A stretch of DNA of 35,665 nucleotides from positions 1 through 35,665 of the forward strand of contig CAISYC010000019.1 of NCBI GenBank assembly GCA_903889565.1, given 5' to 3'. Under the pieces are notes generated by a model that saw nothing but the letters and a program-made list of their open reading frames with translations, ran no database searches and was not told where the DNA came from. Positions 1,249 to 29,575 of this stretch are shown one piece after another. The DNA is from an uncultured beta proteobacterium (GTDB taxonomy: Bacteria; Pseudomonadota; Gammaproteobacteria; Burkholderiales; SG8-41). Positions within the stretch are counted from its first letter, which is position 1. Each line of letters opens with the position of its first letter. The translations under genes were made by a program, and so were the position numbers.

Positions 1249-2298
1249 TTATTCAGCGGGGGCGCGACGCTCGACAAACAGGCTCGAGCCCTCGCTGCGC
1301 TTGGCCATTTTTTTGGCCTCCGTCGCGTGTGCGGCAACCTGCAGGTGCGTGAAAAACCGGCCTGCCGGCACAATCACCGCGCCGATGGCAAGGCTGGTCA
1401 GAGGAAACATCACCTTCTGTCCGCGACGATCCTCGCCGCTGATGCCGCCGCGCGCCAGATCCGCCGGATCGAACAGCGCGCGCGCATTGCGGTCGAACGA
1501 GGCCAGCGCGTGGTTGCAGCGGCGCTCCCAGTCCTCGCTGCGAAACAGCGCGATGAAATCGTCGCCGCCGATATGGCCGATAAAATCGGCGATCGGATCG
1601 ATCGCATCGACCAGTATGCGCGCTGTCAGCTTGATCATCTCGTCGCCGACCGAATAGCCGTAAACGTCGTTGAAAGCCTTGAAGTGATTGAGGTCGCAAT
1701 AGGCGGCGACAAAGCGCGTGCCGGCGCCGAGCAACTGGTCGATCTCTTCATTGATCGGCACGTTGCCCGGCAGGAGCGTGAGCGGATTGGCATAACGCGC
1801 CGACTCCAGACGCAGCCGCGTCATTTCGCGGATCAGGTCCTGGCTGCGGCCGAGGCCGACGAAATGACCCTGCTCACAGATGATGAAACCTTCGGACAGA
1901 TAGCGCTGATCCGCCTCGACCAGCGTTTCGCTCAGTTCTTCGAGCGTCAGCGATGACTCGATGATCAGCGGATGCGGATCCATGTACAGCGTGCAGGAAC
2001 GCTTGCCATGCACCTCGCGATAATACGGGCGCACGAATAACTCGACAAAGCGGTGACGGTGAATCATGCCCTCGGGAATCGCCTCCTGCACCACCGGCAG
2101 CGCGTAAAACTCCGGATGGGATTCAAAAATCTGCAGCACTTTATCGTTGGTGGTGGCGGGACTGACATGCGGCACGGTGACCAGCAGCTTGGCAACGGTT
2201 TCAGTGCGGCGCTGCACCTCGCGCACAAGACGGCTCGCCGCACTGGTCGATCCGGCTGTTTCTACAATATCTTCCGTCGTCATGTCCGGGCCGGGCAT
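1249..2298 (-). CDS. GGDEF-domain protein with N-terminal CBS-like sensor region
   Basis: About 349 aa, predicted cytosolic diguanylate cyclase or degenerate relative. The N-terminal half (about 30-165) resembles paired CBS modules, with FYALPVV, HRFVELFVRPYYREVHGKR and GFIICEQGHFVGLGRSQDLI. The C-terminal half (about 175-345) is a GGDEF domain with the metal-site block YCDLNHFKAFNDVYGY and the signature HIGGDDFIALF, that is GGDDF instead of GG(D/E)EF. No RxxD inhibitory site is visible in front of the signature. The N-terminal region matches the same part of the GGDEF/EAL protein at 13160-15046. I chose the ATG at 2298 over a TTG at 2307; the ATG at 2283 is also possible and none has a strong ribosome binding site. 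It converges on the response regulator. Confidence 0.85.
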   Translation of the reverse strand: MPGPDMTTEDIVETAGSTSAASRLVREVQRRTETVAKLLVTVPHVSPATTNDKVLQIFESHPEFYALPVVQEAIPEGMIHRHRFVELFVRPYYREVHGKRSCTLYMDPHPLIIESSLTLEELSETLVEADQRYLSEGFIICEQGHFVGLGRSQDLIREMTRLRLESARYANPLTLLPGNVPINEEIDQLLGAGTRFVAAYCDLNHFKAFNDVYGYSVGDEMIKLTARILVDAIDPIADFIGHIGGDDFIALFRSEDWERRCNHALASFDRNARALFDPADLARGGISGEDRRGQKVMFPLTSLAIGAVIVPAGRFFTHLQVAAHATEAKKMAKRSEGSSLFVERRAPAE

Positions 2299-2577
2299 CG
2301 TGTGCAATTATTCGAAACGTGCAATTGAGCATCCTTGCGCCATCGTCGATGCCGCAGCAAAGTTCATGTGCGCCGACGTTTGCCGCAGCGCGGCGCCGGT
2401 ATCAAGCATCGTCGGGGAAAACACCGCGGATTCGGGTCATCCGTATCACGGCCAATCCCGGCAGGCGCGGTTTGCAGCCGCCATGATGCGGTGCAACCGT
2501 TAAGAAAATATTTCCAGCGGCGCGGGCATGGTTCAAACGGCCCATGTCGTCATAAATTCACAACAAGTCACAAGCGC

Positions 2578-2970
2578 TCAGGCGGCCGTCCTCACCGCAC
2601 GGCGGGACGACGCACCCAGTGCTGCCACCGTCTGCCTCCAACGCGGCGTGGCAAGTCCCAGCGCGCACAAAGCAGTATCGGTCAGTGCGGCGGCGCCGAT
2701 AAAGCGGAATGCACCGGCAGTTTCGGTCCAGCGCAGATCGAGCAGGAAATAGCAGCGTGACGCCGGATCGAATTCGACAAAGCTTATCCGCGTCGGCTGC
2801 AGCGGAAACAGAAACCGGCGGTAGATGCGCGTAGGAATCTCGCTGACGGCCAGCGGCACCAGATGATCGGCCATCAGCACCAGCGCATAGTCGCCGCGGA
2901 TCTGATAATCGAAATGGCCGCCAAAGATGACTTCACGGCCCTCGGCATAGCGATAACTGTAGCGTCGCAC
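2578..2970 (-). CDS. hypothetical protein, 130 aa
   Basis: An unrecognised small protein read from a GTG at 2970, preceded on its strand by GAAAGG about 6 bases upstream, a plausible ribosome binding site. The N-terminal part alternates aromatic and charged residues (MRRYSYRYAEGREVIFGGHF), suggesting beta strands. The C-terminal 40 residues are Ala/Arg-rich. No signal peptide or membrane segment is evident. It stands alone: a 280-bp gap separates it from the GGDEF gene, and the PilZ operon diverges from it. Codon use matches the neighbours, so I take it as a real gene of unknown function. Confidence 0.55.
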   Translation of the reverse strand: MRRYSYRYAEGREVIFGGHFDYQIRGDYALVLMADHLVPLAVSEIPTRIYRRFLFPLQPTRISFVEFDPASRCYFLLDLRWTETAGAFRFIGAAALTDTALCALGLATPRWRQTVAALGASSRRAVRTAA

Positions 2971-3126
2971 AGGCTGCCTTTCACGATTCCGGCTGCGCAG
3001 AGATTAGCCCGCGAATATGACAACTTTGCGGCGCGCGGGAACGTGCGACCGCGGCGTATTTGCGCGAATTCATCATCGCGTCATTTCAATGTGAAACGCT
3101 CGCACTTTCGCCAATGAGGACAACTC

Positions 3127-4808: not shown

Positions 4809-5678
4809 TCAGGCTGTGCGCGCCCGCTTCGCGCGGCGCGCTACACCGCCCAGCAGACCTAGACCGGCCAGCAGCATTGCCCAGGTCTCCGGTTCCGGCA
4901 CTGCGGCGACTCCCGAAATCGTAACGTTGTCAAAACGCCAGTTGCCCGAGCTATTGTTCAAGGCGGTGCCCTGTGTGCTGACATTGTCTGCGCCCGTCGA
5001 TGCGTTCACCAGTTCAATGGCAAAGAGCGGATCGTTCACTGCATTGGGATCGTTGATGGTCGCCGTCAATCCGGTAAACCAATCCTGCCCGGCCTTCGAT
5101 CCGTTAGTCAGCAGATTGTCGCTGATATACGAACCGTTAACCGTATTGGCGGAAATCGAGTTCGTCAATACAGCCAATCCAAGCGAGCCATTCGCGCCAA
5201 TGTTGATCGGGGTATTGATCCAGTTGACGCCATCCGTGGTGTATTCCAATTGCAAATTGGCCTCACCCTGAGTCGTCGCATACCAGTCGAAGCTGACATT
5301 AATACCGGTGTAGCCGAGGGTGCTTGCGGAAAACACGGCACCCTGCGTGCCGATTGGCGCAAGGCTGGACCAGCCGTTGGCCGCTCCGTTAGCGCCGGCC
5401 TGCGCGCGGACGCGCCAGGTCTGAGTGGTGTCGGCAACACCGTTCGCTCCCGTGTCGGAAGACTTCCCCACAAGGACGTCATTGGTGGTTACCCCGATAT
5501 TCGGCGTTGCGTAGATATTCATACCGATGGATTGCGCGGAACCCGATCCCGTCGAAGGTGCCGGATTGTTATTGACCGCTATCGAATTGTTCTCGAAAGT
5601 CCACTGGGTGATCACACCAGCGTGAGCAGACGGCACTGATGCCGCAACTAAGGCTGCAATGGATAAGATTTTTTTCAT
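4809..5678 (-). CDS. PEP-CTERM sorting-domain protein
   Basis: A 289-aa exported protein. The N-terminal signal peptide is MKKILSIAALVAASVPSAHA, and the extreme C-terminus is a PEP-CTERM signal: VPEPETWAMLLAGLGLLG followed by a basic tail (ARRAKRARTA). Such proteins are cut by an exosortase (EpsH) and are usually linked with exopolysaccharide export; no exosortase is in the window. The mature part is Asn/Thr/Gly/Ser-rich with few Cys or Lys, like a beta-sandwich adhesin or extracellular matrix protein (WTFENNS, VSFDWYATTQGEANLQLEYT). I start at the ATG at 5678 because it opens the signal peptide; a longer frame to 5705 adds nine unlikely residues. It follows the larger PEP-CTERM gene by 73 bp. 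Confidence 0.85.
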   Translation of the reverse strand: MKKILSIAALVAASVPSAHAGVITQWTFENNSIAVNNNPAPSTGSGSAQSIGMNIYATPNIGVTTNDVLVGKSSDTGANGVADTTQTWRVRAQAGANGAANGWSSLAPIGTQGAVFSASTLGYTGINVSFDWYATTQGEANLQLEYTTDGVNWINTPINIGANGSLGLAVLTNSISANTVNGSYISDNLLTNGSKAGQDWFTGLTATINDPNAVNDPLFAIELVNASTGADNVSTQGTALNNSSGNWRFDNVTISGVAAVPEPETWAMLLAGLGLLGGVARRAKRARTA

Positions 5679-5751
5679 TTGAGGTTGCTCCGTTTTGCCG
5701 AACATTTAACAATCAACGGTCAATAGCTATTGCGCTTCTGCCTGCAGCTCG

Positions 5752-7359
5752 CTAGGCGGCTTTCTGCTTTTTACGACGAGCCGCAAATCCAAGCAGACCA
5801 AGACCGGCAAGCAGCATCGCGTATGTCTCGGGCTCGGGAACCGGTGCCGCCAAGGCAACACCACGGTATGCCTGCCCAAGGGCCGCCGTATCGAGCACCG
5901 TAAAGTCTTCCGAGGCAGCCTGGCTCGCTGTGGTGTCGGCGAGAGTATCGGTGATCGAAACTACCTGATTTGGATCAGCGCCTGAATCGCCAAGCGCACT
6001 ACCAGCCGTCGACGTCGCCGCGAAGAGTGTGACGGTTCCGTCGGCGTTCACCTGGCCCGTCAGGTTCCTTAGGCCATCGGTAAAAGTGGTCAACGAATGA
6101 CCGTTGCCATCATTGACAGTAAAGGAACTGCCGATCAGGCTGCCCCTCAACGTGTAGTTGAGGACCCACGTCCCGTTGACCAGACTCCATTTCTGCAGTC
6201 CGCCAGCCAGTGTCGTCGCATTTGACCCGAAGTCGGTCGTGGCCCCCGACCCTTCGTCAGCGACATACAGCGTGGTCGCATTCGCAAACCAGATACCAAA
6301 CGGGTGCGGAGTCATGGTGTCTGTTTTTGCGAGCAGGGTATTGAATCCGGGCAGAATCGACACGGTTGTATTACCGGCGCCCGGCAAAGATCCCGCGTTA
6401 CCGACCTGGTAAACCGTATCGATCCCGTTGCTGCCGCTGCCCTTCGTCACATAAAGAGTGCCGTTATAAACGGTCTCGCCACGGTAGTTGCTGTCCTTGG
6501 CAGTCTTGTCGGCTGCGTAGCCATTCTGGGTAATGCTGTAAGGCGCCACATTGCTCAGCGTTGTGGTACTAGGGTTGGAGCCCGGCGCGATTCGCTGCAC
6601 ACCGGTACCGTTCGTTATGCCGGCGCCACCATTGCCGTTACCGGCGTTTCCGGTCGTGTAGTAATTCCCGTCTGCGCCGAGGATCGCAGCGCGGCCGTTG
6701 TTACCCGAGTAGGCGTTGGTGTTGGTAACTTGAACCGAGTTGTTGTTGAGGTTCAACTGGCCGATCGAACGATAGGACGCGGTTGCCGTGTCGGTGTTGC
6801 CCGCCTCGGCCACCCCGGGTGTCGCCGAATTTGAAACATCCAGAAGACCGGTCGTAGACGCGTAGCCCATGAATGTCAGGGACTGTCCGTCCGGCGTCAG
6901 GTTGATCGCGAGTTCGGATTTTGACGCAAAACTCGTAACCAGATTGATGCCCTGGCTGGCGGCCTGAGCCGTGACATTCACCGTGTTAAGGACCGCACCC
7001 GTGCTTGCATTGATATTTTGCATCACTACGTTCGCCGTTATCCCGAAATTGGCGTCAACGCTGGCGTTGTTCCAAACGTTCACGGAGCAATTTGCATTGG
7101 CGCAAAACGAGCTTCCGGCGACCGCGTTTGCACCAGTGCTGATCGGCAACGATGCACCCACGGAAAATCCCGGATCGACGTAGGACGCGCTGCTGACAAT
7201 CAAACCGCCGGCGAAACTGCCGAGAGCCGATTGCGCGAATGCCGGTGCTGCAATAAACGAACTGGCGGCAAGAATGGCGGCGTAAGCAACGCTGCGCCGG
7301 AAAGGTACGAAGTGCGCCGCCTGTGCTGCCGTACGCGCACGGCTGAATTTCTTGTTCAT
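5752..7359 (-). CDS. PEP-CTERM sorting-domain protein, large
   Basis: A 535-aa exported protein. A long N-terminus (about 42 residues, basic for the first 25, then AYAAILAASSFIAAPAFA) acts as the signal peptide. The C-terminus has VPEPETYAMLLAGLGLLGF and a basic KKQK tail, the exosortase-processed PEP-CTERM signal. The body is Asn/Thr/Gly-rich, with repeated segments such as VQRIAPGSNPSTTTLSNV, GTLYVTKGSGSNGIDTVYQV and TTLYVADEGSGATTDFG that look like propeller blades (inference from alternating LYV/LQKW strands). Ribosome binding site GGAGAT is 7-8 bases upstream of the ATG. A 10-residue-scale inverted repeat (7443-7485) lies in the upstream region. It is likely cotranscribed with the smaller PEP-CTERM gene. 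Confidence 0.85.
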   Translation of the reverse strand: MNKKFSRARTAAQAAHFVPFRRSVAYAAILAASSFIAAPAFAQSALGSFAGGLIVSSASYVDPGFSVGASLPISTGANAVAGSSFCANANCSVNVWNNASVDANFGITANVVMQNINASTGAVLNTVNVTAQAASQGINLVTSFASKSELAINLTPDGQSLTFMGYASTTGLLDVSNSATPGVAEAGNTDTATASYRSIGQLNLNNNSVQVTNTNAYSGNNGRAAILGADGNYYTTGNAGNGNGGAGITNGTGVQRIAPGSNPSTTTLSNVAPYSITQNGYAADKTAKDSNYRGETVYNGTLYVTKGSGSNGIDTVYQVGNAGSLPGAGNTTVSILPGFNTLLAKTDTMTPHPFGIWFANATTLYVADEGSGATTDFGSNATTLAGGLQKWSLVNGTWVLNYTLRGSLIGSSFTVNDGNGHSLTTFTDGLRNLTGQVNADGTVTLFAATSTAGSALGDSGADPNQVVSITDTLADTTASQAASEDFTVLDTAALGQAYRGVALAAPVPEPETYAMLLAGLGLLGFAARRKKQKAA

Positions 7360-7442
7360 GGTTGCCTTATCTCCAGTTGGGCTGAGGCCCCGATGACCAT
7401 CAGCCGTTGTCGATACTTTTTACGCTGGATGTATTACGGGAG

Positions 7443-7485
7443 ACGTAGTCAATGAGGTGCGAAACGTAGCCTTATTGGACTACGT
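7443..7485. promoter_or_regulatory. inverted repeat upstream of the large PEP-CTERM gene
   Basis: ACGTAGTC (7443-7450) and GACTACGT (7478-7485) form a perfect 8-bp inverted repeat with a 27-bp spacer, about 85-125 bp upstream of the PEP-CTERM start. A further ACGTAGCC lies inside the spacer. Similar TAGTCC/GGACTA elements occur at 23240-23257 and 28491-28516. It may be a binding site of a regulator (LuxR/NarL-type sites have this look), but that is inference. The rest of 7360-7610 shows no gene. Confidence 0.4.
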
Positions 7486-7610
7486 ACGGGATTTCCGGCG
7501 CCCTAACAACTTTCCAGTGCGATAAGGCACCTTCTTGAATTGGCAAGCGGATTAATCGCTGCTTCAAGCTGGCTGGGCGCGTCGACCGAACCGCGCAAGG
7601 CGAGCCAAGG

Positions 7611-9791
7611 TCAGCGCTGCAGCGCGGCGACCAGGGCGTTGGAAAACTCCAGCCGGTCGGCGACGGTCTTGACCACCATCGCGTGGAAGCGCGCCGCCAC
7701 CCCGGGATGGATGGCTTCGATTTCGCGCATGGCCTGAACATTGAGCTGATAAACCACCGCCGCTTCCTGAATCACGACATTCGCGCTGCGACGGGCTGCC
7801 CTGTAAAGCCCCATCTCACCGAGTATGGTTTTCGGTCCCAGCGTGCGCAGACGGCGCGCAGTCGAGCCCTCGACATCGAGTTCGATCGCGACGCGGCCGC
7901 TTTCGATGAAATACATGTCGTCGGCGGCTTCGCCCTGCCGGCACAGCACTTCACCGGCCGCCAGCGAACGTCGCTGCATATAGGTCAACAATGTGGTCGC
8001 GCTGTCGCCGACCTCGGCATGCAGCCAGTCGCGGATCACGCCATCGGCGCCCGCCTGCGTGGTGCGACGCGCATTGATGACGGCGCTCTCGCACCATTCT
8101 GCGCCGGTATCAATGGCGGCAAAATGCCGGATTGCGGCGAGATCCGGATCGGCGCGTCCCTGCCATTCAGCCACCTGCTCTTCGCGCATGCCGGTGATCA
8201 CGAGTTGTGCGCCCGTCGCGCGCGTGCTGAAACTGATTTTCTTGAAACTGGCGATGGCCGAGGCATCGACGCCGTGCACCAGCTTGAGATCGAGGATAAC
8301 GAAACGTGCCCTGGCGCCGGCCGGCGGAAACGCCGTGTCGAGCACTGCGCGATAGAGGCGGTCGGCCATGCCGAAAAAAATAAAGCCCTGCAGTACGAAT
8401 ATCCGGATGTCTTCGCCGTACTCGGTGAGCAATGCCTTGTCGTCGGCCGAGCGCTCGTGACTGCTGCGGTATTCGCGGCCGGTAAAACTGAATTTGACAA
8501 CGCGGATTTTGCTATAGGTCACGGCGAACAGCACACAGCCGACCAGCACGCCGAGGATCAGCCCGTAGCCGAAACCGAACACCACCGTCACGCCGAGAAT
8601 GAGCAGCAGCGTCAGGTGTTCGGCGCGTGGCAATTGCAGTCGCGTGTCCACCGCCCATTTTCGCAGCAGCGCGATACCGAAGTAGAGCAGCAGGCCCCCC
8701 AACAGCGAACGCGGCAGATAGCCGATCAGACCCATGCCGGACCACGCAAGCATGACGGCGACCACGGCAAACACGATCCCGCTCAATCGGCTGGTGGCGC
8801 CGAGCCGGAAATTCATCAGACTGCGGTTCATCGACAGATAGCCGAGAAATCCGCCCAACAGCGGCGCCACGATATTGGCTGCGCCCTGCACCGCGAGTTC
8901 GCGGTCAAGATTGGCGTCGGTGCGCGTTTCCATCTCGAGTCCGGTGGCGTTGATCAGCACGGTCAGCGTCGTTACCAGCACCAGCGTGCCGATGTCGCCG
9001 GCGCGTTCCAGCAATAACGACCACTGCGTCTGCACGAAACCGGCGCTGTGCCACGGCATCCACGGCGCAGTATCGGCAGGTGCACCGAACAGCCAGCCAT
9101 CGGCGCGCGCGGCATCGATCGAAATGCCCGCAGCGAACAAGGCAATATGAAAAGCGAACATGCCGCCGATTTGCAACAACGGCAGCGCCACCGCGCTCTT
9201 GAGACGCGGCAGCACGATGAACAGCAGTACGGCCCAGATCAGGCCGACGCCAAACTGGAATTGCAATTGCGGATCGACCAGCAGACCCAGTGTACGCGGT
9301 GTCACCGGCACGCCACCGATCACGCGCAAGGCGCCGAGCACGGTCAGCGCGCCAGCCGCCGCGATCAGACCACCGACGACCGGATAGGGAATGAAACGGA
9401 TCCAGCGTCCGGCGCGCGCAACGCCCATGGCCGTCAGGCAGACGCCGGTGATCAGCGTGCTGACGGCGAGCAGGTAAAGCACATTGCTGGTCGCGACCGC
9501 GGCAGTCACGCCGACCGACAGGTCTTTGGCGATTGCCGCCGCCATCGCCGCCATCACCGCACAGGCATTGGCATCCGGGCCGGATACGGCGAAGCGAAAC
9601 GCGCTGAACACCGCCACCGCCAGCGCGGTAACGCCGGTGCCGATCAACAGCGCGCTGATGCCCTGGGCAAAACCGCCCGCCGTGGCGCCCGAAAAAATCA
9701 GCGCCGCAAAACTCAGGCTGTAAACCAGCGATATGACGGAGGTGACCGCACCGCTGGTGACGTCACGCGTGACTTGCCGGAACGATTCCAA
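7611..9791 (-). CDS. SulP-family anion transporter with STAS and cyclic-nucleotide-binding domains
   Basis: A 726-aa inner-membrane protein. Residues about 10-420 are the SulP/SLC26 transporter with 10-14 hydrophobic helices and the block FAVSGPDANACAVMAA near helix 3. A cytoplasmic STAS domain follows (about 450-560; VILDLKLVHGVDASAIASF). The last 120 residues are a Crp-like cNMP-binding domain (GEAADDMYFIESGRVAIELD, LGEMGLYRAARRSANVV). SulP proteins carry sulfate, bicarbonate or dicarboxylates; the substrate here cannot be told. The STAS-cNMP tail suggests gating by a nucleotide or by lipid/protein partners. The start is a TTG at 9791, because no ATG lies ahead of the first helix. It is 112 bp downstream of galU and may be in its transcription unit. 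Confidence 0.88.
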   Translation of the reverse strand: MESFRQVTRDVTSGAVTSVISLVYSLSFAALIFSGATAGGFAQGISALLIGTGVTALAVAVFSAFRFAVSGPDANACAVMAAMAAAIAKDLSVGVTAAVATSNVLYLLAVSTLITGVCLTAMGVARAGRWIRFIPYPVVGGLIAAAGALTVLGALRVIGGVPVTPRTLGLLVDPQLQFQFGVGLIWAVLLFIVLPRLKSAVALPLLQIGGMFAFHIALFAAGISIDAARADGWLFGAPADTAPWMPWHSAGFVQTQWSLLLERAGDIGTLVLVTTLTVLINATGLEMETRTDANLDRELAVQGAANIVAPLLGGFLGYLSMNRSLMNFRLGATSRLSGIVFAVVAVMLAWSGMGLIGYLPRSLLGGLLLYFGIALLRKWAVDTRLQLPRAEHLTLLLILGVTVVFGFGYGLILGVLVGCVLFAVTYSKIRVVKFSFTGREYRSSHERSADDKALLTEYGEDIRIFVLQGFIFFGMADRLYRAVLDTAFPPAGARARFVILDLKLVHGVDASAIASFKKISFSTRATGAQLVITGMREEQVAEWQGRADPDLAAIRHFAAIDTGAEWCESAVINARRTTQAGADGVIRDWLHAEVGDSATTLLTYMQRRSLAAGEVLCRQGEAADDMYFIESGRVAIELDVEGSTARRLRTLGPKTILGEMGLYRAARRSANVVIQEAAVVYQLNVQAMREIEAIHPGVAARFHAMVVKTVADRLEFSNALVAALQR

Positions 9792-9903
9792 TGAACTCGC
9801 TTAAAAATGTTGCCGGTGGCATGCCGGCCGTGCCGAGATCGCGAAAAACCGCGTTTCCAGTTTAATGGCGAATGCTTGCAGCGTCCACGCGGGTGCCGCG
9901 GCC

Positions 9904-10788
9904 CTAGCGCTTGCGCAGCGCCTTCAGGTGCGCCGAAAAACCGCGCGCCGTTTCCGGATGCCGCAGTCCGTAGGCGACGTTGGCCTTGAGGTAACCCAGT
10001 TTGCTGCCGCAATCGTAACGGATGCCGTCGAAGGTATAAGCAAGCACCGATTCCTCGGACAGCAGCGCAGCGATGGCATCGGTCAACTGGATTTCGTCGC
10101 CGGCGCCGGGCTTACCGTGCTGCAAATGGTGAAAGATGCGCGGCGTCAGCAGATAGCGGCCGACCACCCCCAACGTGGAAGGCGCATCGGCCGGCTGCGG
10201 TTTCTCGACGATTGCATCGACTCGGCTCAGCTTGCCGCGGCGCGCACCCGGCTTGATGATGCCGTATTGCCGCGTTTCCGCGCGCGCCACCTTCTGCACG
10301 CCGAGCAGCGAGCATTGCTCGTGCTCGAAGACATCGACCATTTGCCGCATCACCGGCGGTTTGCCGTCGATCAAGTCGTCGGCCAGAATCACCGCGAACG
10401 GCTGTTCGCCGATCACCGGCCGCGCGCACAGCACGGCATGGCCGAGCCCTAGCGCCTGCGGCTGGCGCACATAGATGCATTTGACGTGCGGCGGCACGAT
10501 TTCACGCACCGCCTTGAGCATGATGGATTTGCCGCGCGCTTCCAGTTCGGATTCGACTTCGAACGCGCGGTCGAAATGGTCCTCGATCGCGCGCTTGCTG
10601 CGGCCGGTGATAAACACCATCTCGGTAATGCCGGCGGCGACCGCCTCTTCGACCGCATACTGGATGAGCGGTTTATCGACCACCGGCAACATCTCCTTGG
10701 GACTGGCCTTGGTCGCCGGCAGAAATCGCGTGCCCATGCCGGCCACCGGAAAAACCGCTTTCTTGATTGTCGCCATAAAATCTTTCAT
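9904..10788 (-). CDS. galU: UTP--glucose-1-phosphate uridylyltransferase
   Basis: A 294-aa nucleotidyltransferase that makes UDP-glucose from UTP and glucose-1-phosphate, the precursor for exopolysaccharide, LPS and trehalose or glycogen-type glucans. The N-terminal signature [20 protein letters not shown] and [16 protein letters not shown] is complete. Further GalU blocks are [28 protein letters not shown] and [14 protein letters not shown]. Length fits GalU (about 290-300 aa). The start could be 10788 or the internal ATG at 10776 ([10 protein letters not shown]), which aligns better with GalU N-termini; neither has a strong ribosome binding site. It begins 6 bp after the stop of the PP2C phosphatase gene, so it is the last gene of the partner-switching operon. 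Confidence 0.93.
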
Positions 10789-10794
10789 TCCGCG

Positions 10795-12117
10795 TTATGG
10801 GGAGTCCGCGCCGTCGCTGTCCGCCGGCGCTTGCGCCTTGAGACAATAACGAACGGCCAGCATGGTGATGTCGTCGGCCTGCGGCGCGTCCAGCACGAAC
10901 GTGCCGATATCGGCACGCACCTCGTCAACGAGGCTGCGCGGCTCGCGCCGGGTGGCGCGACGCACCGTTGCCAGCAGCCGCTCCTCCGAATAAAAATCGC
11001 TCGCCATGTTCATCGCCTCGGTCACCCCGTCGGTATACAGGAGAATTGTTTCGCCAGGATTTAACTGGCGCGAATCGACCGGATAACGCGCGTTGTCCAT
11101 GATGCCGGCGACGAGCCCCTTCTTGAGTTTCAGAAATTCGGGCCGGCCGTCGAGCCCGACGAACAGCGGCGGGTTGTGGCCGGCGTTGGCAAAGCTGAGT
11201 TGCCCGCTCTCGGTGTCGAGCACGGCGCAAAACAGGGTGACGAACATGCCCTCGTCGTTGCCTTCGCAGAGCGCCCGGTTGACCGCCTCCAGAACGGCGG
11301 ACGGCGAGCGCCGGCGCACCGCCTCCATCCGCAGCTGGGTGATAGTGCGCGCCATGAACAGGGCCGCCGGCACGCCCTTGCCCGAAACATCGCCAACAGC
11401 GACGAACAGCCGGTTGGGCGCGGCGAAGAAGGCATCATAGAAATCGCCGCCGACGTTTTTTGCCGGCTCCATGATGGCGTAGGCCTGCACTGCGGCATGG
11501 TCGGGAAACAGGCGCGACCCCGGCGGCAGCATGCTGACCTGAATGTTGCTGGCGATCGACAGTTCTTTCTGCAGGTGCTCGAGCGCGAGCTTGTCCTTCA
11601 TGCGTTCGAGGATCATGTCGCGATTCAGCCGCATGCGTTCGGACAGCACGTTGAGCAGGTTGCGCGCCACCCCGGGCTGCGGAATCAGGCGTTCCCAGAA
11701 CAGCGTCTCGTGTATCGCCAGCACGCGACTGGCAACATCGGCCACCACGTAGGCGGAGACCGGACGGCCGTCGATAATCGACAGTTCGCCGAAACAGCCG
11801 CCCTCTTCGATCGCGATGTAATCGGCCGAATCGGCCCGGTCGAGGTGAATGCGCAGGCGCCCTGACACCAGCAAGTGAATCGAATCGTTGCGCTGCCCCG
11901 GCTCAAGCAGAATGGCGCCGGCCGGCACATCATGGGCGACGCACGCCGCCAGCACCGCTTCCACCGCCTCGTAGGGGATGGTCGAGAACAGCTGCAAATG
12001 GGAGATGAACCCGTTGCGCCGGCGATCTTCACCGGCACGGCGTTCCGCCGGCAGCCCCAATGCGATGCGCGAGGTACCGAGAAAGGCCTTGCGGCGGTCG
12101 GCGCCGCGGCTATGCAT
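10795..12117 (-). CDS. cNMP-domain PP2C-type (SpoIIE/RsbU) phosphatase
   Basis: A 440-aa cytosolic protein. Residues about 40-165 form a Crp-like cyclic-nucleotide-binding domain (GAILLEPGQRNDSIHLLVSG, GCFGELSIIDGRPVSAYVV). A helical linker (about 170-215; LERMKDKLALEHLQKELSIA) leads to a SpoIIE-type PP2C domain with metal-site motifs VGGDFYDAFF, VGDVSGKGVPAALFMA, FANAGHNPPL, LLYTDGVTEAMN and ADDITMLAVRY. RsbU/SpoIIE phosphatases remove the phosphate from STAS anti-anti-sigma factors, so the STAS protein two genes upstream is the expected substrate. The cNMP domain would be the signal input. The ATG overlaps the end of the kinase gene by 8 bp, which suggests translational coupling. Confidence 0.9.
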   Translation of the reverse strand: MHSRGADRRKAFLGTSRIALGLPAERRAGEDRRRNGFISHLQLFSTIPYEAVEAVLAACVAHDVPAGAILLEPGQRNDSIHLLVSGRLRIHLDRADSADYIAIEEGGCFGELSIIDGRPVSAYVVADVASRVLAIHETLFWERLIPQPGVARNLLNVLSERMRLNRDMILERMKDKLALEHLQKELSIASNIQVSMLPPGSRLFPDHAAVQAYAIMEPAKNVGGDFYDAFFAAPNRLFVAVGDVSGKGVPAALFMARTITQLRMEAVRRRSPSAVLEAVNRALCEGNDEGMFVTLFCAVLDTESGQLSFANAGHNPPLFVGLDGRPEFLKLKKGLVAGIMDNARYPVDSRQLNPGETILLYTDGVTEAMNMASDFYSEERLLATVRRATRREPRSLVDEVRADIGTFVLDAPQADDITMLAVRYCLKAQAPADSDGADSP

Positions 12118-12553
12118 CGCTGGGCTGGAGTGTACGCTCCGTTTCCAGACTCAACACGTTGACGCCGTTTTCGCGCCGATAATAAAGGCGCGTAGCGAGG
12201 CGGCGGATCAACCTGATACCGAGTCCGCCGACCGCGGCCTCCTCCAGGCTCGCCGGCGCAGCAGTAGCCGGCGCCGCCAGCAGATCGAAGGGTTTGCCGT
12301 CGTCGCGAATGACCAGCGAAGCGCCGTGCGGCGTCGCATTCAATTCGACGGTGATCTCGTGTCGTCGCGTGTCTTCGTAGGCGTAGCTGATGATGTTGAT
12401 CAATGCCTCGTTGGCGCAAACATCAAGCTTGTGCAGTATCTCGGCGGGCAGCGCAGAGGCCGCCGCACTGGCGCGCAACCAGTCGGTCACGCGTCGCAGT
12501 TCGGACACGTCGTTGTTTATTATGAGGCGTTCGACTGGCATGGCGGATGGCAT
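12110..12553 (-). CDS. RsbW-like anti-sigma factor / serine kinase (HATPase_c)
   Basis: A 147-aa GHKL ATPase-fold protein. The N box is DVCANEALINIISYAYED, the G1 box VIRDDGKPFD and the G2 box GGLGIRLIRRLA, as in RsbW/SpoIIAB/BtrW. Such proteins phosphorylate a STAS antagonist and sequester a sigma factor or another target. There is no sigma factor gene in the window, so the output partner is unknown. It sits between the STAS gene (17-bp gap) and the PP2C gene (8-bp overlap). The start at 12553 gives MPSAMPVER; the ATG at 12541 is the other option. Confidence 0.9.
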   Translation of the reverse strand: MPSAMPVERLIINNDVSELRRVTDWLRASAAASALPAEILHKLDVCANEALINIISYAYEDTRRHEITVELNATPHGASLVIRDDGKPFDLLAAPATAAPASLEEAAVGGLGIRLIRRLATRLYYRRENGVNVLSLETERTLQPSDA

Positions 12554-12570
12554 GCCACCTGTAACGGCCG

Positions 12571-12909
12571 TCAGACAGCGACGGCCGAGCGCGCCTCGTC
12601 GAAGCTGCGGCAGATCGGGATCAGGGTGTCTATTCCGGCCATCTCGAGCACGTGCGACACGTTGGTATCGGGATTGAACAATACCATTTTGCCGCCGCGG
12701 CGGGAAATGGCCTTGGCCACCAGCAACAGCGTGCGAATGCCGATCGAGGCCAGAAAATCCACCGCCGTCATGTCGACAATCACCGCCTTTTGGTTCGCCG
12801 TGTAGCCGTTGAACTTGAGATCGATTTCCTGCGTGCCTTGCACATCCATGCGGCCGGCGAGGCTGATTTTCAGCACGCCGTTGTCCAACGTTTCGCTCTC
12901 AATATTCAT
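12571..12909 (-). CDS. STAS-domain anti-anti-sigma factor
   Basis: A 112-aa single-domain STAS protein of SpoIIAA/RsbV type. The block VDFLASIGIRTLLLVAK carries the expected phosphorylatable serine S55, followed by the usual I-G-I/R pattern. Its phosphorylation by the kinase and dephosphorylation by the PP2C protein would decide whether the kinase is free to bind its target. It is the first gene of the leftward operon STAS - kinase - phosphatase - galU. Divergent from it, 250 bp away, is the GGDEF/EAL gene, so 12910-13159 must contain promoters for both sides; no clear -35/-10 pair stands out. Confidence 0.9.
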   Translation of the reverse strand: MNIESETLDNGVLKISLAGRMDVQGTQEIDLKFNGYTANQKAVIVDMTAVDFLASIGIRTLLLVAKAISRRGGKMVLFNPDTNVSHVLEMAGIDTLIPICRSFDEARSAVAV

Positions 12910-13159
12910 GTGTGTGTCGAGTATGCCGGAGGGTCAATCAAGTCCATCATCGTAGTCGTGCAATGTTACGTTTCGGTTACAGCGCATTCTGCATCTTTCA
13001 CTGGGCAGGCGATTGTCGTAATGTGTTGGACTGCCAAAAAATGCGTTCAAACAAAATGTCGCAGACATCACCCGGGAATTTTTACGATAACCACTCAAGA
13101 TTGCGCGAGCGTGGTCGATACCAGCCATTGGGGTCCATTGGTTTCGACCGGAGCGTGTC

Positions 13160-15046
13160 ATGAGTAAATCGATCGAATTGAGCCAGACCGGCGCGTCTGT
13201 CGCCGTGACACCGGTCGCCGGCAGTGGTCGGCTGCTGCGCCAGTTCATTTTCATCGACGAAGGCCAGTTGCAGGAAGCGCCGACGGTGCAAGAATTGCTG
13301 CGCCCGCTGGCACCGGTGCGCGACGATGAACTGTGCGAAACCATCCTCGCCCGCTTCCTGGATGACGACGCGCTCTACGCATTGCCCGTGATCGACGCCG
13401 AGAACAAACCGCTGACGCTGATCGACCGCAAACACTACATCGAATTTTTCAGTAAACGCTATACCCGCGAAATCTTCGGCCGCCAGAACGTGCTGCAATT
13501 GCTGGCTTACGAAGACTACCGCAACGGCAAACCGACCGTCGTCGAAGATACCTGCACCGTCGAGGATGTGGCGAAGATCATCATCGATGCCGGCATGCAG
13601 CACATGGTGACCGGCTTCATCGTCACCCGCGACCACGGCTACGCCGGCGTCGCCAACGGTCACGATCTGCTCAACATCATTACGCAGCGCAAGCAGGCCG
13701 AACTCTATTATCTCGCGCACTATGACGCGCTCACCGGCGTTCCCAACCGGGTCCTGCTCGCGGACCGCCTGGAGCAGGCCTGCCGCGACGCCGAACGCAA
13801 AGGCAAGCTGGTTGCCCTGCTCTACATCGACGTCGATCGTTTCAAGCAAATCAACGATTCGCTCGGTCACAGCGCCGGCGATGCGGTGCTGCGCAAGGTC
13901 GTGGACCGCCTCAAGACCTGCGCGCGACGCGCAGACACGGTGGCACGGCTGGCCGGCGACGAATTTGTCATCCTGATGGAGAACCTCGCCGATGCCGGCG
14001 ATGTCGAGATCGTCGCCCGGCGGCTGGTCAAGTTGATGCGCGAGCCGATCGAACTGCATGGTCATTCGCTGGTTGCCACTGTCAGCGTCGGCAGCGCGAT
14101 TTTCCCGACCGATGACACCGCAGTCAGCGCGCTGCTCGCAAAAGCCGATGCCGCGATGTATGACGCCAAATCAAAGGGCCGCAATGGCCATCGCCGTTAC
14201 CTGCCCGATACGGCCATGTACAACCCGGCCAAGATGCTGCTCGAAAACGATCTGCGCCAGGCGATCGAACGCAACGAACTGGTACTGCATTTTCAGCCGC
14301 AGGTCGATCTTGCAACGCAGACGATTCCGGGCGTGGAAGCGCTGGTGCGCTGGCGGCACCCTGCCCGCGGTCTGGTTCCGCCCGGACAATTCATCGCCAT
14401 TGCCGAGGAAAGCGGCCTGATTGTGCCGCTGGGCGAATGGGTGATCTGCGAGGCGTTCCGGCAATTGAAGGCGTGGCAGGCCGCGGGGCTGCAGGCGCTG
14501 CGCATCTCGGTGAATATTTCAGCGCTGCAGTTTCATCAGCGCAGCTTCCCCGCATTTCTCAAGGCGCAGCTCGCGGAATACGGCGTCGATCCGGGACTGA
14601 TCGAACTGGAACTGACCGAGAGCGCGTTGATGCAGAACCTTGACGAGGTGTTGCAATCGCTGAAGGAGATCAAGTTGCTGGGCTTCAGCCTTGCCATCGA
14701 CGATTTCGGCACCGGCTTTTCAAGCCTGAGTTACCTGCGGCGGTTCCCGATAGATCGCCTGAAAATCGACCAGTCCTTCGTGCGCGACATCGAACGCACC
14801 CCGGTCAACGAATCGATCGCGCGCGCGATTGTCGCGCTCGCCAACAGCCTGTCGCTCGACATCGTTGCCGAAGGCATCGAAAATCCGCTGGAAAAAGGCG
14901 TGCTGGCCGGAATGGGGTGTACCGAGGGGCAAGGCTATTTATTTGCAAAACCACTTGCCGCGGATGACTTCGTGCAATGGCTTGCCGCGCATCGCAGCAA
15001 TAATGTGGTCAGACTCGCCGACCCGCGCGCGGCGCAACGGGTCTGA
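13160..15046 (+). CDS. CBS-like/GGDEF/EAL bifunctional c-di-GMP protein
   Basis: A 628-aa cytosolic protein with three parts. Residues about 40-175 are a CBS-like sensor region (ALYALPVIDAENKPLTLIDR, YIEFFSKRYTREIFGR, TGFIVTRDHGYAGVANG). Residues about 185-350 form a GGDEF domain with LYIDVDRFKQINDSLGHSAG and RLAGDEFVILME, that is AGDEF. Residues about 365-620 form an EAL domain with VEALVRWRHP, ISVNISALQF, ELTESALM, IDDFGTGFSSLSYLRR and RLKIDQSFV, all phosphodiesterase residues present. EAL activity is therefore likely; AGDEF variants may be active or serve as a GTP-sensing module. The ATG has GGAG about 7 bases upstream. It is divergent from the partner-switching operon, and shares its N-terminal module with the GGDEF protein at 1249. 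Confidence 0.93.
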   Translation: MSKSIELSQTGASVAVTPVAGSGRLLRQFIFIDEGQLQEAPTVQELLRPLAPVRDDELCETILARFLDDDALYALPVIDAENKPLTLIDRKHYIEFFSKRYTREIFGRQNVLQLLAYEDYRNGKPTVVEDTCTVEDVAKIIIDAGMQHMVTGFIVTRDHGYAGVANGHDLLNIITQRKQAELYYLAHYDALTGVPNRVLLADRLEQACRDAERKGKLVALLYIDVDRFKQINDSLGHSAGDAVLRKVVDRLKTCARRADTVARLAGDEFVILMENLADAGDVEIVARRLVKLMREPIELHGHSLVATVSVGSAIFPTDDTAVSALLAKADAAMYDAKSKGRNGHRRYLPDTAMYNPAKMLLENDLRQAIERNELVLHFQPQVDLATQTIPGVEALVRWRHPARGLVPPGQFIAIAEESGLIVPLGEWVICEAFRQLKAWQAAGLQALRISVNISALQFHQRSFPAFLKAQLAEYGVDPGLIELELTESALMQNLDEVLQSLKEIKLLGFSLAIDDFGTGFSSLSYLRRFPIDRLKIDQSFVRDIERTPVNESIARAIVALANSLSLDIVAEGIENPLEKGVLAGMGCTEGQGYLFAKPLAADDFVQWLAAHRSNNVVRLADPRAAQRV

Positions 15047-16703: not shown

Positions 16704-18104
16704 GTGCCTGAATTCGTTCACACCGTCGGCGCCCGCAGCCATCGCTTCGCCGACCTGAAGGCCCTGCTGGCAAAGGCCTCGCCCGCGCGCGCGGGCGACC
16801 GGCTGGCGGGCATTGCCGCGTCAAACGCGGAGGAACGCGTCGCCGCGCAGATGGCGCTGGCCGAACTGCCGCTAAAAACCTTTCTCGATCAATCGGTGGT
16901 CGATTACGACGCCGACGACATCACGCGCCTCAGCATCGACAGCCATGACACCGCCGCCTTTGGGCCGGTGGCACATCTGACCGTCGGCGATTTCCGCAAC
17001 TGGCTGCTCGCCTATGAAACCGAGGCGGCGGAATTGGCCGCGGTGGCGCCGGGGTTGACGCCGGAAATGGCCGCGGCGGTATCGAAAATCATGCGGATTC
17101 AGGACATGGTGCTGGTGGCGCGCAAAATCAGCGTAGTCACGCGCTTTCGCAACACGCTGGGTCTGCCGGGGTGCTTGTCCAACCGCTTGCAACCGAATCA
17201 CCCGACAGACGACGTCAAAGGCATCGCCGCCAGCCTGCTCGACGGACTGCTCTACGGCTGCGGCGACGCCGTGATCGGCATCAACCCGGCCACCGACAAT
17301 CTGCAACAGGTGATCCGGCTCAACCATCTGCTCGCCGATGTCATCGCGACCTATGCCATCCCGACCCAGTCATGCATCCTGACCCACGTCACCACGACGA
17401 TGCAGGCGATGGCGCAGGGCGCGCCGGTCGATCTGGTGTTTCAGTCGATCGGCGGCAGCGAGGCCACCAACCGCAGCTTCGGCGTCACGCAGTCGATGTT
17501 AAGCGAAGCGGCGGCGATGGCGCGTGCACTCCAACGCGGCAGCGTTGGCGACAACGTCATGTACTTCGAAACCGGACAGGGCAGCGCACTCTCCGCCAAC
17601 GCCTATCACGGCGTCGATCAGCAGACGATGGAAGTGCGCGCCTACGGCCTCGCACGCGCATTCTCGCCGCTGCTGGTCAACAGCGTGGTCGGCTTCATCG
17701 GACCCGAATATCTCAACGGCCGCGAGATCATTCGCGCCGGCATTGAGGATCACTTCTGCGGCAAGTTGCTCGGCCTGCCGATGGGCGTGGACATCTGTTA
17801 TACGAACCACGCTGACGCCGATCAGGACGACATGGACACGCTGTTGACGCTGCTAGGCGCCGCCGGCGTTACCTACATCATGGGCGTGCCCGGCGCCGAC
17901 GACATCATGCTCAATTACCAAAGCACGTCATTTCACGATGCGTTATATCTGCGTCAACTGCTGAATCTCAAACCGGCACCGGAGTTTGAGGACTGGCTCG
18001 CGGCGGGGTGCATCGTCAGCAATGGCATCACGTTGCAACCGGCGGTCGAAAACCACCGGCTGCTGCAACTCGTTGAAATGGACAATAACGAAACCCTGCC
18101 GTGA
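16704..18104 (+). CDS. eutB: ethanolamine ammonia-lyase, large subunit
   Basis: The 466-aa catalytic subunit of coenzyme-B12-dependent ethanolamine ammonia-lyase, which converts ethanolamine to acetaldehyde and ammonia. Family blocks are clear: LPGCLSNRLQPNHPTDDVKG, GDAVIGINPATDN, PTQSCILTHVTT, QSIGGSEATNRSFGV, MYFETGQGSALSANA, LLGLPMGVDICYTNHADADQ and YIMGVPGADDIMLNYQSTS. These carry the TIM-barrel substrate and cobalamin contacts. Length is close to the enteric protein (about 453 aa). The start is a GTG at 16704; the spacer GGAACTCCGC is a weak ribosome binding site. It overlaps eutC by 4 bp (GTGA). No eutA reactivase, microcompartment shell or aldehyde dehydrogenase is in view. Confidence 0.95.
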   Translation: MPEFVHTVGARSHRFADLKALLAKASPARAGDRLAGIAASNAEERVAAQMALAELPLKTFLDQSVVDYDADDITRLSIDSHDTAAFGPVAHLTVGDFRNWLLAYETEAAELAAVAPGLTPEMAAAVSKIMRIQDMVLVARKISVVTRFRNTLGLPGCLSNRLQPNHPTDDVKGIAASLLDGLLYGCGDAVIGINPATDNLQQVIRLNHLLADVIATYAIPTQSCILTHVTTTMQAMAQGAPVDLVFQSIGGSEATNRSFGVTQSMLSEAAAMARALQRGSVGDNVMYFETGQGSALSANAYHGVDQQTMEVRAYGLARAFSPLLVNSVVGFIGPEYLNGREIIRAGIEDHFCGKLLGLPMGVDICYTNHADADQDDMDTLLTLLGAAGVTYIMGVPGADDIMLNYQSTSFHDALYLRQLLNLKPAPEFEDWLAAGCIVSNGITLQPAVENHRLLQLVEMDNNETLP

Positions 18105-18904
18105 CCGACGACGCAAAACGCGGCAGCGAAATCGGCCGTCCCGACCCTTGGCACACCCTGCGCAGCCTCACCGCAGCACGCATCGGCTTGGGACGCGCCG
18201 GGGGCAGCCTGCCGACACGGCCGCTGCTCGAATTCCAGTTAGCGCATGCGCGGGCGCGCGATGCCGTCCTGCACGAACTCGATGCGGCAGCGCTGGCGCA
18301 ATCGCTGACATCGCCGAGCGATGATATTTTTCAACTGCACAGCGCGGCGGGCGATCGTGCCGCCTTTATCGCACGCCCCGATTGCGGACGCATACTCGAC
18401 GACACTTCGCGCAAACTGCTCGAGAAACGTACGGCCGCGATAACACCGTACGACTGCGCCTTCATCGTCGCGGACGGACTTTCCGCCTGCGCCATCGAAC
18501 ATCACGCAGCAGGGCTGCTCGCGGCAATTTTCGAAAAGCTCGCCGGCGACGACTGGCGTCTGGCGCCGCTGTCGATCGTGCGCCAGGGACGGGTCGCCAT
18601 CGGCGACGAGATCGGCGCCCTGCTGCAAGCGCGCATGACGGTGCTGCTGATTGGCGAACGGCCCGGCCTGTCCGCGCCGGACAGCCTCGGCATATATCTT
18701 ACGTATGATCCGCTGCCGGGCCGCAGCAACGCCGAGCGCAATTGCATTTCGAACATCCGCGAACCCGGTGGGCTGTCATACGCACGCGGCGCGCACAAAC
18801 TGGCCTACCTCATGCGGGAATCGCGCCGGCGACATCTTTCAGGCATTGACTTGAAGGAACAGGCAGCTGCGCTGGACGATGCCGGGTCTGCCGAGAACGC
18901 CTAA
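18101..18904 (+). CDS. eutC: ethanolamine ammonia-lyase, small subunit
   Basis: The 267-aa small subunit that completes the B12 pocket of ethanolamine ammonia-lyase. Recognisable blocks are DPWHTLRSLTAARIGLGRAG, LEFQLAHARARDAV, IVADGLSACAIEHHA, IGERPGLSAPDSLGIYLTYD and NCISNIREPGGLSY. The GTG start overlaps the eutB stop, so the two are translated together. It is slightly shorter than the enteric EutC, mainly lacking the N-terminal extension that in enteric bacteria targets the microcompartment, in line with a non-compartmentalised lyase. Its last 4 bases overlap the end of the convergent ppk2 gene. Confidence 0.94.
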   Translation: MTDDAKRGSEIGRPDPWHTLRSLTAARIGLGRAGGSLPTRPLLEFQLAHARARDAVLHELDAAALAQSLTSPSDDIFQLHSAAGDRAAFIARPDCGRILDDTSRKLLEKRTAAITPYDCAFIVADGLSACAIEHHAAGLLAAIFEKLAGDDWRLAPLSIVRQGRVAIGDEIGALLQARMTVLLIGERPGLSAPDSLGIYLTYDPLPGRSNAERNCISNIREPGGLSYARGAHKLAYLMRESRRRHLSGIDLKEQAAALDDAGSAENA

Positions 18905-28606: not shown

Positions 28607-29575
28607 ATGACGGCCATGTTCAATTCCTGGAAATTCGCCGCGATTGTTCTTGGAACATCCGTGGTCATTTCGCCGGCCCACGCGCTGACCTTCAATAATG
28701 AATTTTCCAGCCTGTCGAATCTGTCCGGTGCGACGCAAAGCAGCTGGCTGACTGATATCTCCACTGCGGAGGCGGCTTTCACCAGCGTTTTCAGCGACCC
28801 CATATCCATCAATATCAGCTGGAACGCCGATCCAAACCTGTCCTCCGTCGGTGCATCCGCGAGTTACATCAATCTGGAGAACTGGTCGGCGCTGAAGACG
28901 GCCGCCGTAAAGGACGCGACGAGTGCGGGCGATTTCACCGCGATCGGCACAGGCGGGTCGCTAAACGGCAGCGGCCCCAACAACAACGCAAGCCTTTACA
29001 TCACAACGGCAGACGCCAAAGCGCTTGGACTGGTACCTGCCAATGCCGCCGCCTCGGACGGGACCATCACCATAAACTCCAGCCTCGTCTTCAACGGCAG
29101 TAATGCGGTCGCAGGGCTGTACAGTTTTATCGGTACCGCCGAACATGAAATCTCGGAAGTCATGGGTCGCATCGGGCTAAGCGGTGGAAGTGTTAGCGGC
29201 GTAGCCGGGGGCCAATACAGCCTGCTTGATGCCTTTAGTTATTCGGGCGCGGGTTCGCGCAGTCCCGGCAACGGCAGCGGCAACTATTTCTCGATAGACG
29301 GGGGTAAAACACTGCTGAAGGCCTACAACAATCAGCAGGGACCCGGCGGAGATTCCCGCGACTGGGCGTCGAGCGCGACGCCCGACCAGTTCGACGCCTT
29401 CGGCACGCCGGGACAGGCCTACGCAGGCTTATCTGCAATCGATGTTGAAGAACTGGATGTGCTCGGTTACAACCTGATCACGCCTGTTCCCGAACCGGAA
29501 ACCTACGCGATGCTGCTTGCCGGTCTTGGCGTGCTTGGATTTTCAGCTCGTTACCGGAAACACACAGACGCCTGA
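28607..29575 (+). CDS. PEP-CTERM protein with HExxxxMGR zincin-like motif
   Basis: A 322-aa exported protein. The signal peptide covers about residues 1-26 (FAAIVLGTSVVISPAHA). The middle contains AEHEISEVMGRIGLSGG, with H180-E181 and the nearby E184/R188: a zincin-like HExxxxMGR motif, as in the NF038122-type PEP-CTERM metalloprotease group (recognition by pattern, not by search). Two further blocks, YSLLDAFSYSGAGSRSPG and YFSIDGGKTLL, usually accompany it. The C-terminus PVPEPETYAMLLAGLGVLGF plus a basic tail is the exosortase sorting signal. The ATG at 28607 has CGAAGA upstream; the ATG at 28616 is an alternative. A strong terminator follows. Confidence 0.85.
   Translation: MTAMFNSWKFAAIVLGTSVVISPAHALTFNNEFSSLSNLSGATQSSWLTDISTAEAAFTSVFSDPISINISWNADPNLSSVGASASYINLENWSALKTAAVKDATSAGDFTAIGTGGSLNGSGPNNNASLYITTADAKALGLVPANAAASDGTITINSSLVFNGSNAVAGLYSFIGTAEHEISEVMGRIGLSGGSVSGVAGGQYSLLDAFSYSGAGSRSPGNGSGNYFSIDGGKTLLKAYNNQQGPGGDSRDWASSATPDQFDAFGTPGQAYAGLSAIDVEELDVLGYNLITPVPEPETYAMLLAGLGVLGFSARYRKHTDA

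Follow-up and report, generated by a model that had tools for sequence, protein, structure and literature searches.

A stretch of 35,665 nucleotides from an uncultured beta proteobacterium (assembly GCA_903889565.1, contig CAISYC010000019.1, positions 1 to 35,665), referred to here as the window, carries between positions 9,904 and 12,909 four tightly packed genes for a STAS protein, an RsbW-like kinase, a PP2C-type phosphatase with an N-terminal domain resembling a cyclic nucleotide-binding domain (CNBD), and GalU. Our analysis favours a partner switch that stands on its own, reads its signal through a non-canonical sensor and acts on a target in trans; galU would be a spare neighbour, probably co-transcribed by position, rather than a conserved part or target of the switch. 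We assign this reading a probability of about 0.6. An earlier note on this DNA had suggested that the switch, packed into one operon with galU, takes a cyclic nucleotide as its input and governs either UDP-glucose supply or the export of exopolysaccharide.

The four genes of the earlier note, their coordinates, strand and junctions were exactly reproduced: all are encoded on the minus strand, and according to the open reading frame (ORF) calls the STAS and kinase genes are separated by 17 bp, the kinase and phosphatase genes overlap by 8 bp, and 6 bp lie between the phosphatase gene and galU. Pfam searches assigned STAS (E-value 5.1e-16), HATPase_c_2 (3.4e-23), SpoIIE together with cNMP_binding (1.3e-54 and 3.6e-11) and NTP_transferase (2.4e-29) to the four products in turn. 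The STAS protein scored above the cut-off of TIGR00377 ant_ant_sig (60.6 bits, cut-off 53.45), and its S55, invariant in 10 of 10 aligned STAS proteins, aligns to the first serine of the DSSG motif of SpoIIAA and is thus the predicted phosphorylatable serine at the SpoIIAA/RsbV position. Profile matches among solved structures placed RsbW (6m36, E-value 2.5e-13) and SpoIIAB (1th8, 2.6e-7) as the nearest relatives of such kind to the kinase, which scored 36.8 bits against the RsbW equivalog model and so remained far under its cut-off of 145. The kinase residues E49, N53, D84, G86, G110 and G112 were invariant in all ten aligned sequences, and the protein has both the N-box Glu/Asn and the glycine-rich lid of GHKL kinases. 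For the phosphatase, a motif table of 22 homologues showed the metal-ligand aspartates in GGD, GD[VI] and [TS]DG in every sequence and the C-terminal DD in 20, with gaps at this place in the other two, in keeping with a SpoIIE-type enzyme with metal-binding aspartates. Judged by these motifs, everything required for a partner switch based on serine phosphorylation is intact, which gives a working switch on paper and agrees with the naming of the module in the earlier note as a full STAS/RsbW-like kinase/PP2C set. A sigma-factor domain, also reported as missing before, was detected in none of the 18 window ORFs scanned with Pfam, a search that covered neither the remaining window ORFs nor the rest of the genome.

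To place the module among relatives, we compared 26 phosphatase loci. Besides the window, these are nine loci found in the 100 nearest genomes, 12 found in 399 genomes of the order and four more in 398 phylum and 74 family genomes; these genome sets overlap and were searched at different thresholds. Among the 100 nearest genomes, 29 (including the own genome) gave a phosphatase match at E 1e-40, and the nine near-full-length others were used, leaving out 19 genomes in which the best match started around residue 128 or later and covered little or nothing of the CNBD. A further search for related loci yielded eight, the 68% relative described below and seven from other bacteria with 38–46% identity, which matched mainly the phosphatase part and were also left out. 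The distribution of the module is patchy: it occurs in 10 of the 74 genomes from the family, in 16 of the 399 from the order and, at a threshold of 1e-80, in four of the 398 from the phylum, the own genome among them. STAS, kinase and phosphatase genes follow one another in this order on one strand in 20 of the 26 loci, one of which, L099, has an extra STAS gene on the opposite strand (loci and genomes are designated L and G). In nine of the 26 loci, or nine of the 21 in which a kinase was found, a single open frame encodes both kinase and phosphatase. L032, the closest relative with a phosphatase 68% identical to that of the window, is one of these, which makes it more likely that the two proteins form a unit.

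The galU gene adjoins the module in one of the 26 loci, the window itself. Since the contigs of L035 and L097 end in or right after the phosphatase gene, the downstream side is visible in 23 other loci (over 0.6 kb in L100 and about 1 kb in L159), and galU was found there in none. Match tables of the 100 nearest genomes, inspected by eye, showed galU near a phosphatase match only in the own genome; elsewhere the two were on separate contigs or a long way from each other, or galU did not feature in the tables. A conserved switch-galU operon was rejected because of this single adjacency.

GalU itself is a full member of its family, scoring 373.5 bits against NCBIfam TIGR01099 (cut-off 326.8) and matching solved GalU over its full length. 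Translation probably starts at the second ATG (10776), four codons into the called frame, where aligned GalU proteins begin; this would widen the gap to the phosphatase gene from 6 to 18 bp, which is still operon-like. The genome, G000, contains another galU (G000:C8:73275-74144) that is 84% identical to the window copy, and the idea that the window gene is the only source of UDP-glucose was rejected for this reason. The copy on contig C8 follows ligA, with smc and zipA further upstream (all three named by eye), and galU likewise follows a ligA-like gene in 12 of 12 same-genus loci compared, 11 of which also have the other flank in common with C8, L062 being the exception. This comparison covered 12 of the 14 other same-genus genomes, since G006 and G014 gave only partial galU matches; in G007, a genome with 9% contamination, galU was matched three times, twice downstream of ligA. 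Given the conserved ligA-galU position, the housekeeping copy is most likely the C8 gene, which would make the window gene a spare. A tree of 31 sequences joins the window copy with four others, namely the C8 copy and three from the same genus (support 0.995), and places it as sister to those four (0.79), suggesting a spare of within-genus origin. More than one galU match at E 1e-60 was observed in 10 of 100 genomes searched, G000 included, and in one of these, G047, the matches are probably two pieces of one gene. A more usual setting for a second galU is seen in G007 (contig C149, L130), where the extra gene stands beside dTDP-rhamnose-like and galE-like frames identified by eye. No STAS/kinase/phosphatase module was found in the 17 galU loci fetched, mostly from genomes with extra copies and not including G047.

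These data bear directly on the proposal that switch and galU constitute a functional operon controlling UDP-glucose supply or exopolysaccharide export in response to a cyclic nucleotide. The tight same-strand packing, the intact galU frame with its full-length match to solved GalU, the PEP-CTERM proteins nearby and the existence of partner switches that control biofilm polysaccharide or cyclic di-GMP (c-di-GMP), as in SypE/SypA and HsbR-HsbA-HsbD, are all compatible with it. Against these stand the adjacency in one locus of 26, the second galU after ligA, the 17 fetched galU loci without the module and the loss of a key arginine in the sensor domain described below, so that we regard this operon as rather unlikely. 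The earlier note had itself named a lack of conservation in relatives as a result that would speak against the switch-galU link, and the survey did not sustain that link. Its title word "fused" stands as a description of tight gene packing, but nothing in the window is fused to galU itself. As it appears from these comparisons, galU is at most a locally co-transcribed spare, and control of UDP-glucose supply by the switch is conceivable but unsupported.

The N-terminal domain of the phosphatase exceeds the PF00027 cut-off of 27.5 with 43.3 bits, and an AlphaFold2 model shows strands and helices in the expected region. In such domains, an arginine of the phosphate-binding cassette (PBC) grips the cyclic phosphate. 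Alignment with the CNBD of the MlotiK1 channel (3cl1) placed a valine of the window protein opposite the arginine of GEPRSATV, and similar scores were obtained with 3clp and 3co2, chains that have E and W at this position and that we take to be binding mutants. The PBC arginine was absent from all 26 phosphatase homologues (V in 14, A in 6, I in 4, S and N in one each), and the PBC glutamate was retained as E in 24 and as D in two. The arginine was retained in the CNBDs of all four membrane proteins inspected, namely SulP of the window, where it lies within RRSA, of L038 and of G006, and BrkB of L099. The cyclic-nucleotide input suggested before is made unlikely by the missing residue, at least as signalling by cAMP or cGMP through the usual arginine chemistry, and the uniformity of the loss argues for an altered ligand or a structural role and against recent decay. 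Among the possibilities considered was that the phosphatase lineage reuses the CNBD fold for a signal other than cAMP or cGMP, such as a cyclic dinucleotide, a nucleotide or a protein ligand, and that the switch has here captured a spare, diverging galU and sets UDP-glucose output; as a combined claim, this seems decidedly improbable. Within the collection of papers searched, none dealt with arginine-less CNBDs, with a switch-galU operon, or with partner switching combined with STAS, PP2C and cyclic nucleotide-binding.

In the AlphaFold2 model of the phosphatase (monomer, 10-sequence alignment; mean predicted local distance difference test (pLDDT) 79.7, predicted template modelling score 0.57), a continuous helix at residues 150–196 joins the CNBD-like part to the PP2C domain with modest confidence (pLDDT blocks of about 62–80). 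In RsbU, the linker is described as forming a short coiled coil, through which the phosphatase domains are dimerised and activated, a view its authors extend to related phosphatases (PMC12143880), and the modelled helix is compatible with such a linker. In the free-standing switch that we favour, the kinase would phosphorylate the STAS protein on S55. The CNBD-like domain would sense a signal other than cAMP or cGMP bound by canonical arginine chemistry and set the long helical linker; in its active state, this domain would let PP2C dephosphorylate the phosphorylated STAS protein. The unphosphorylated form could then capture the kinase and thereby release a kinase-bound target encoded elsewhere. 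A sigma factor acting in trans is the most likely such target; failing that, it could be a c-di-GMP enzyme or a regulator of another kind. The spare galU would probably be co-transcribed with the switch by virtue of its position.

Such a scheme follows the RsbV-RsbW-RsbU and SpoIIAA-SpoIIAB-SpoIIE systems of Bacillus, with which the module shares a STAS substrate, a GHKL kinase, a PPM/SpoIIE phosphatase and matching motifs. It differs from them in that no sigma gene was seen in the cluster, in the low RsbW score of the kinase, and in the CNBD-like input that takes the place of the RsbU N-terminal domain. HsbR-HsbA-HsbD of Pseudomonas aeruginosa and CrsR-CrsA of Shewanella are similar in having a separate STAS protein and, as in nine of our loci, kinase and phosphatase in one protein, and their sigma target is RpoS; unlike the window module, HsbR and CrsR have a receiver-domain input and the phosphatase before the kinase (PMC6482189). 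Within the Pseudomonas system, RpoS is the target of HsbR, whereas HsbA acts on FlgM and HsbD (PMC6482189, PMC5085249). The icfG cluster of Synechocystis (Slr1856, Slr1859, IcfG, Slr1861) also has partner-switch genes beside a carbohydrate enzyme, there the isoamylase slr1857, and its kinase Slr1861 is reported as an anti-SigC factor; however, the enzyme is a different one, the carbon role of icfG was shown by mutants whereas the link in the window is one of gene position only, and the portion of that account used here mentions no CNBD (PMC12329169). Given the sigma targets reported for the kinase of the icfG cluster and for HsbR, the lack of a sigma gene in the neighbourhood does not point to a metabolic target. 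SypE-SypA of Vibrio fischeri is a further STAS phospho-switch, linked to polysaccharide and with the target of SypA given as unknown, but SypE is a single multi-domain kinase/phosphatase within an 18-gene polysaccharide locus (PMC8256260). PP2C-superfamily phosphatases joined to a cyclic nucleoside monophosphate (cNMP)-type domain are described in myxobacteria; these are of the PF00481 type with the cNMP domain at the C-terminus, whereas the window protein is of the SpoIIE type (PF07228) with this domain at the N-terminus (PMC2887360).

Table 1 Positions of the switch genes, galU and adjoining features in the window
Feature	Position	Strand	Annotation
STAS gene	12571..12909	-	STAS-only, RsbV/SpoIIAA-like phospho-acceptor, 112 amino acids; predicted phospho-serine S55 in FLASIG
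HATPase gene	12110..12553	-	RsbW/SpoIIAB-like GHKL serine kinase / switch protein, 147 amino acids
CNBD-PP2C phosphatase gene	10795..12117	-	CNBD-like Pfam match 64-140; helix 150-196 (model); SpoIIE/PP2C Pfam match 234-423
galU, second genome copy	9904..10788	-	Likely start 10776
Weak terminator-like hairpin with T-rich tail, galU/SulP interval	9812..9828	-	Terminator scan
SulP transporter with STAS and CNBD domains	7611..9791	-	Pfam; neighbour, switch membership not shown
CBS-GGDEF-EAL protein, divergent	13160..15046	+	Pfam; 250 bp upstream of STAS gene; link not conserved

A consensus scan of positions 7000-13400 revealed no minus-strand promoter-like sites and was at chance level overall, with one promoter-like site (1.5 expected) and 10 terminator-like sites (6.9 +/- 2.6 expected). 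With counts this close to chance, the hairpin in the 112-bp interval between galU and SulP is by itself no evidence, and inspection by eye revealed no counterpart of it in the relative of this region in G006.

The neighbourhood of the module varies strongly between loci. Twenty neighbouring proteins scanned with Pfam belonged mostly to different families (gene calls were mechanical), and the immediate neighbours included 5'-nucleotidase, 2-hydroxyacid dehydrogenase, SulP, ChaC, amidase, PEPCK, HMGL, TctC, MFS and ECH. When the 942 frames located up to 5 kb from the 26 loci were compared with one another, no family proved to be near all loci, which ruled out a constant neighbour of any kind. 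L034 and L159 share one frame, presumably similar to a REP-associated transposase. In L032, a 5'-nucleotidase frame (1337-3061, minus strand) starts, by its mechanical call, 2 bp after the fused kinase-phosphatase, so that the gene downstream is again close but of a different kind.

Upstream of the STAS gene, the divergent CBS-GGDEF-EAL protein, whose Pfam CBS match is below the cut-off of that family, offers another candidate target: the phosphorylated or free STAS protein might bind it and set c-di-GMP levels, in the manner of HsbA and the diguanylate cyclase HsbD of Pseudomonas (PMC5085249, PMC6482189). Its gene begins only 250 bp from the STAS gene, an EAL-CBS-GGDEF protein (10017-11975) is divergently adjacent as well in L037, a locus from another bacterial family, and similar frames occur a few kb from the module in L040 (2506-3360) and L156 (501-2261), giving four of the 26 loci within 5 kb. 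However, only two are directly adjacent, one of them the window from which the search was seeded, L156 has neither STAS nor kinase gene, and the proteins most similar to that of the window, from G002 (73%) and G073 (53%), are encoded away from the module. With 24 first-look candidates in the own genome alone, such genes are numerous enough for a chance adjacency to be plausible, and this target is in our view unlikely. A regular c-di-GMP neighbour was rejected on the same counts. The window encodes a second CBS-GGDEF protein at 1249-2307 on the minus strand.

Membrane proteins with a C-terminal CNBD (SulP-STAS-CNBD, BrkB-CNBD) might likewise be tied to the switch through shared STAS or CNBD partners. 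They were found near the module in three of 22 loci, i.e. in the window, in L038 (SulP at 9220-11511, 191 bp downstream) and in L099 (BrkB-CNBD at 9335-11203, with a STAS gene); yet one of these three is the seed, the SulP proteins of window and L038 are only 22.5% identical, BrkB is another family, and the four last-added loci, searched for SulP only, had none. We consider this connection very unlikely, also because the SulP relative in G006 (81% identical; L110, contig C86) is on a contig other than that of the G006 module, where the contig end cuts the phosphatase. Ahead of this SulP gene lies a frameshifted 3' remnant of galU that matches the spare galU of the window with 82% over 77 bp (73 bits) and the C8 copy, the own galU of G006 and the galU of G012 with 19, 24 and 33 bits, respectively. 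The remnant is thus closest to the spare, indicating that the galU-SulP pair is older than the present genome. Beyond it follow a zinc-ribbon ORF and the C-terminus of another ORF, which we take, without a family search, to resemble an IS91-type transposase and TctA, respectively. An ancestral module-galU-SulP block was not supported, given that the G006 pair and module are on separate contigs and a transposase-like ORF stands beyond the remnant.

Elsewhere in the window, three PEP-CTERM proteins (4809-5705, 5752-7359, 28607-29575) are a sign of an exosortase-type surface system, and a eutB-eutC ethanolamine ammonia-lyase pair is encoded at 16704-18904 on the plus strand.

Several observations weigh against a free-standing switch with a merely spare galU. 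Among 125 conserved columns, the window galU departs from the consensus at one, against 0 to 6 in the other copies, and with its intact frame and nearly all conserved residues kept it seems to be under selection, so that the tight junction with the switch may matter. The full same-strand triad is missing in six of the 26 loci: the phosphatase gene is on the other strand in L033 and stands alone in L101 (at a contig edge), L104, L156, L157 and L158. We place the target in trans because no neighbour is constant, and some surroundings do recur, as L098, L102 and L107, all from one genus, share theirs, and eight of 26 loci have TctC-like receptor genes no more than 5 kb away (L033, L035, L036, L038, L098, L100, L102, L107). 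The TctC-like receptor family is very large in these bacteria, which probably explains the latter recurrence.

As far as the 26 loci show, galU adjoins the switch in a single genome and the copy concerned is a spare, which illustrates how an operon-like junction in one genome can mislead, since copy number and relatives removed most of the proposed link. What remains of value is a compact and patchy family of partner switches with no constant neighbour and with a CNBD that lacks the key arginine in all 26 homologues examined, raising the questions of which ligand arginine-less CNBDs on PP2C phosphatases may bind and which distant targets such orphan switches may control.

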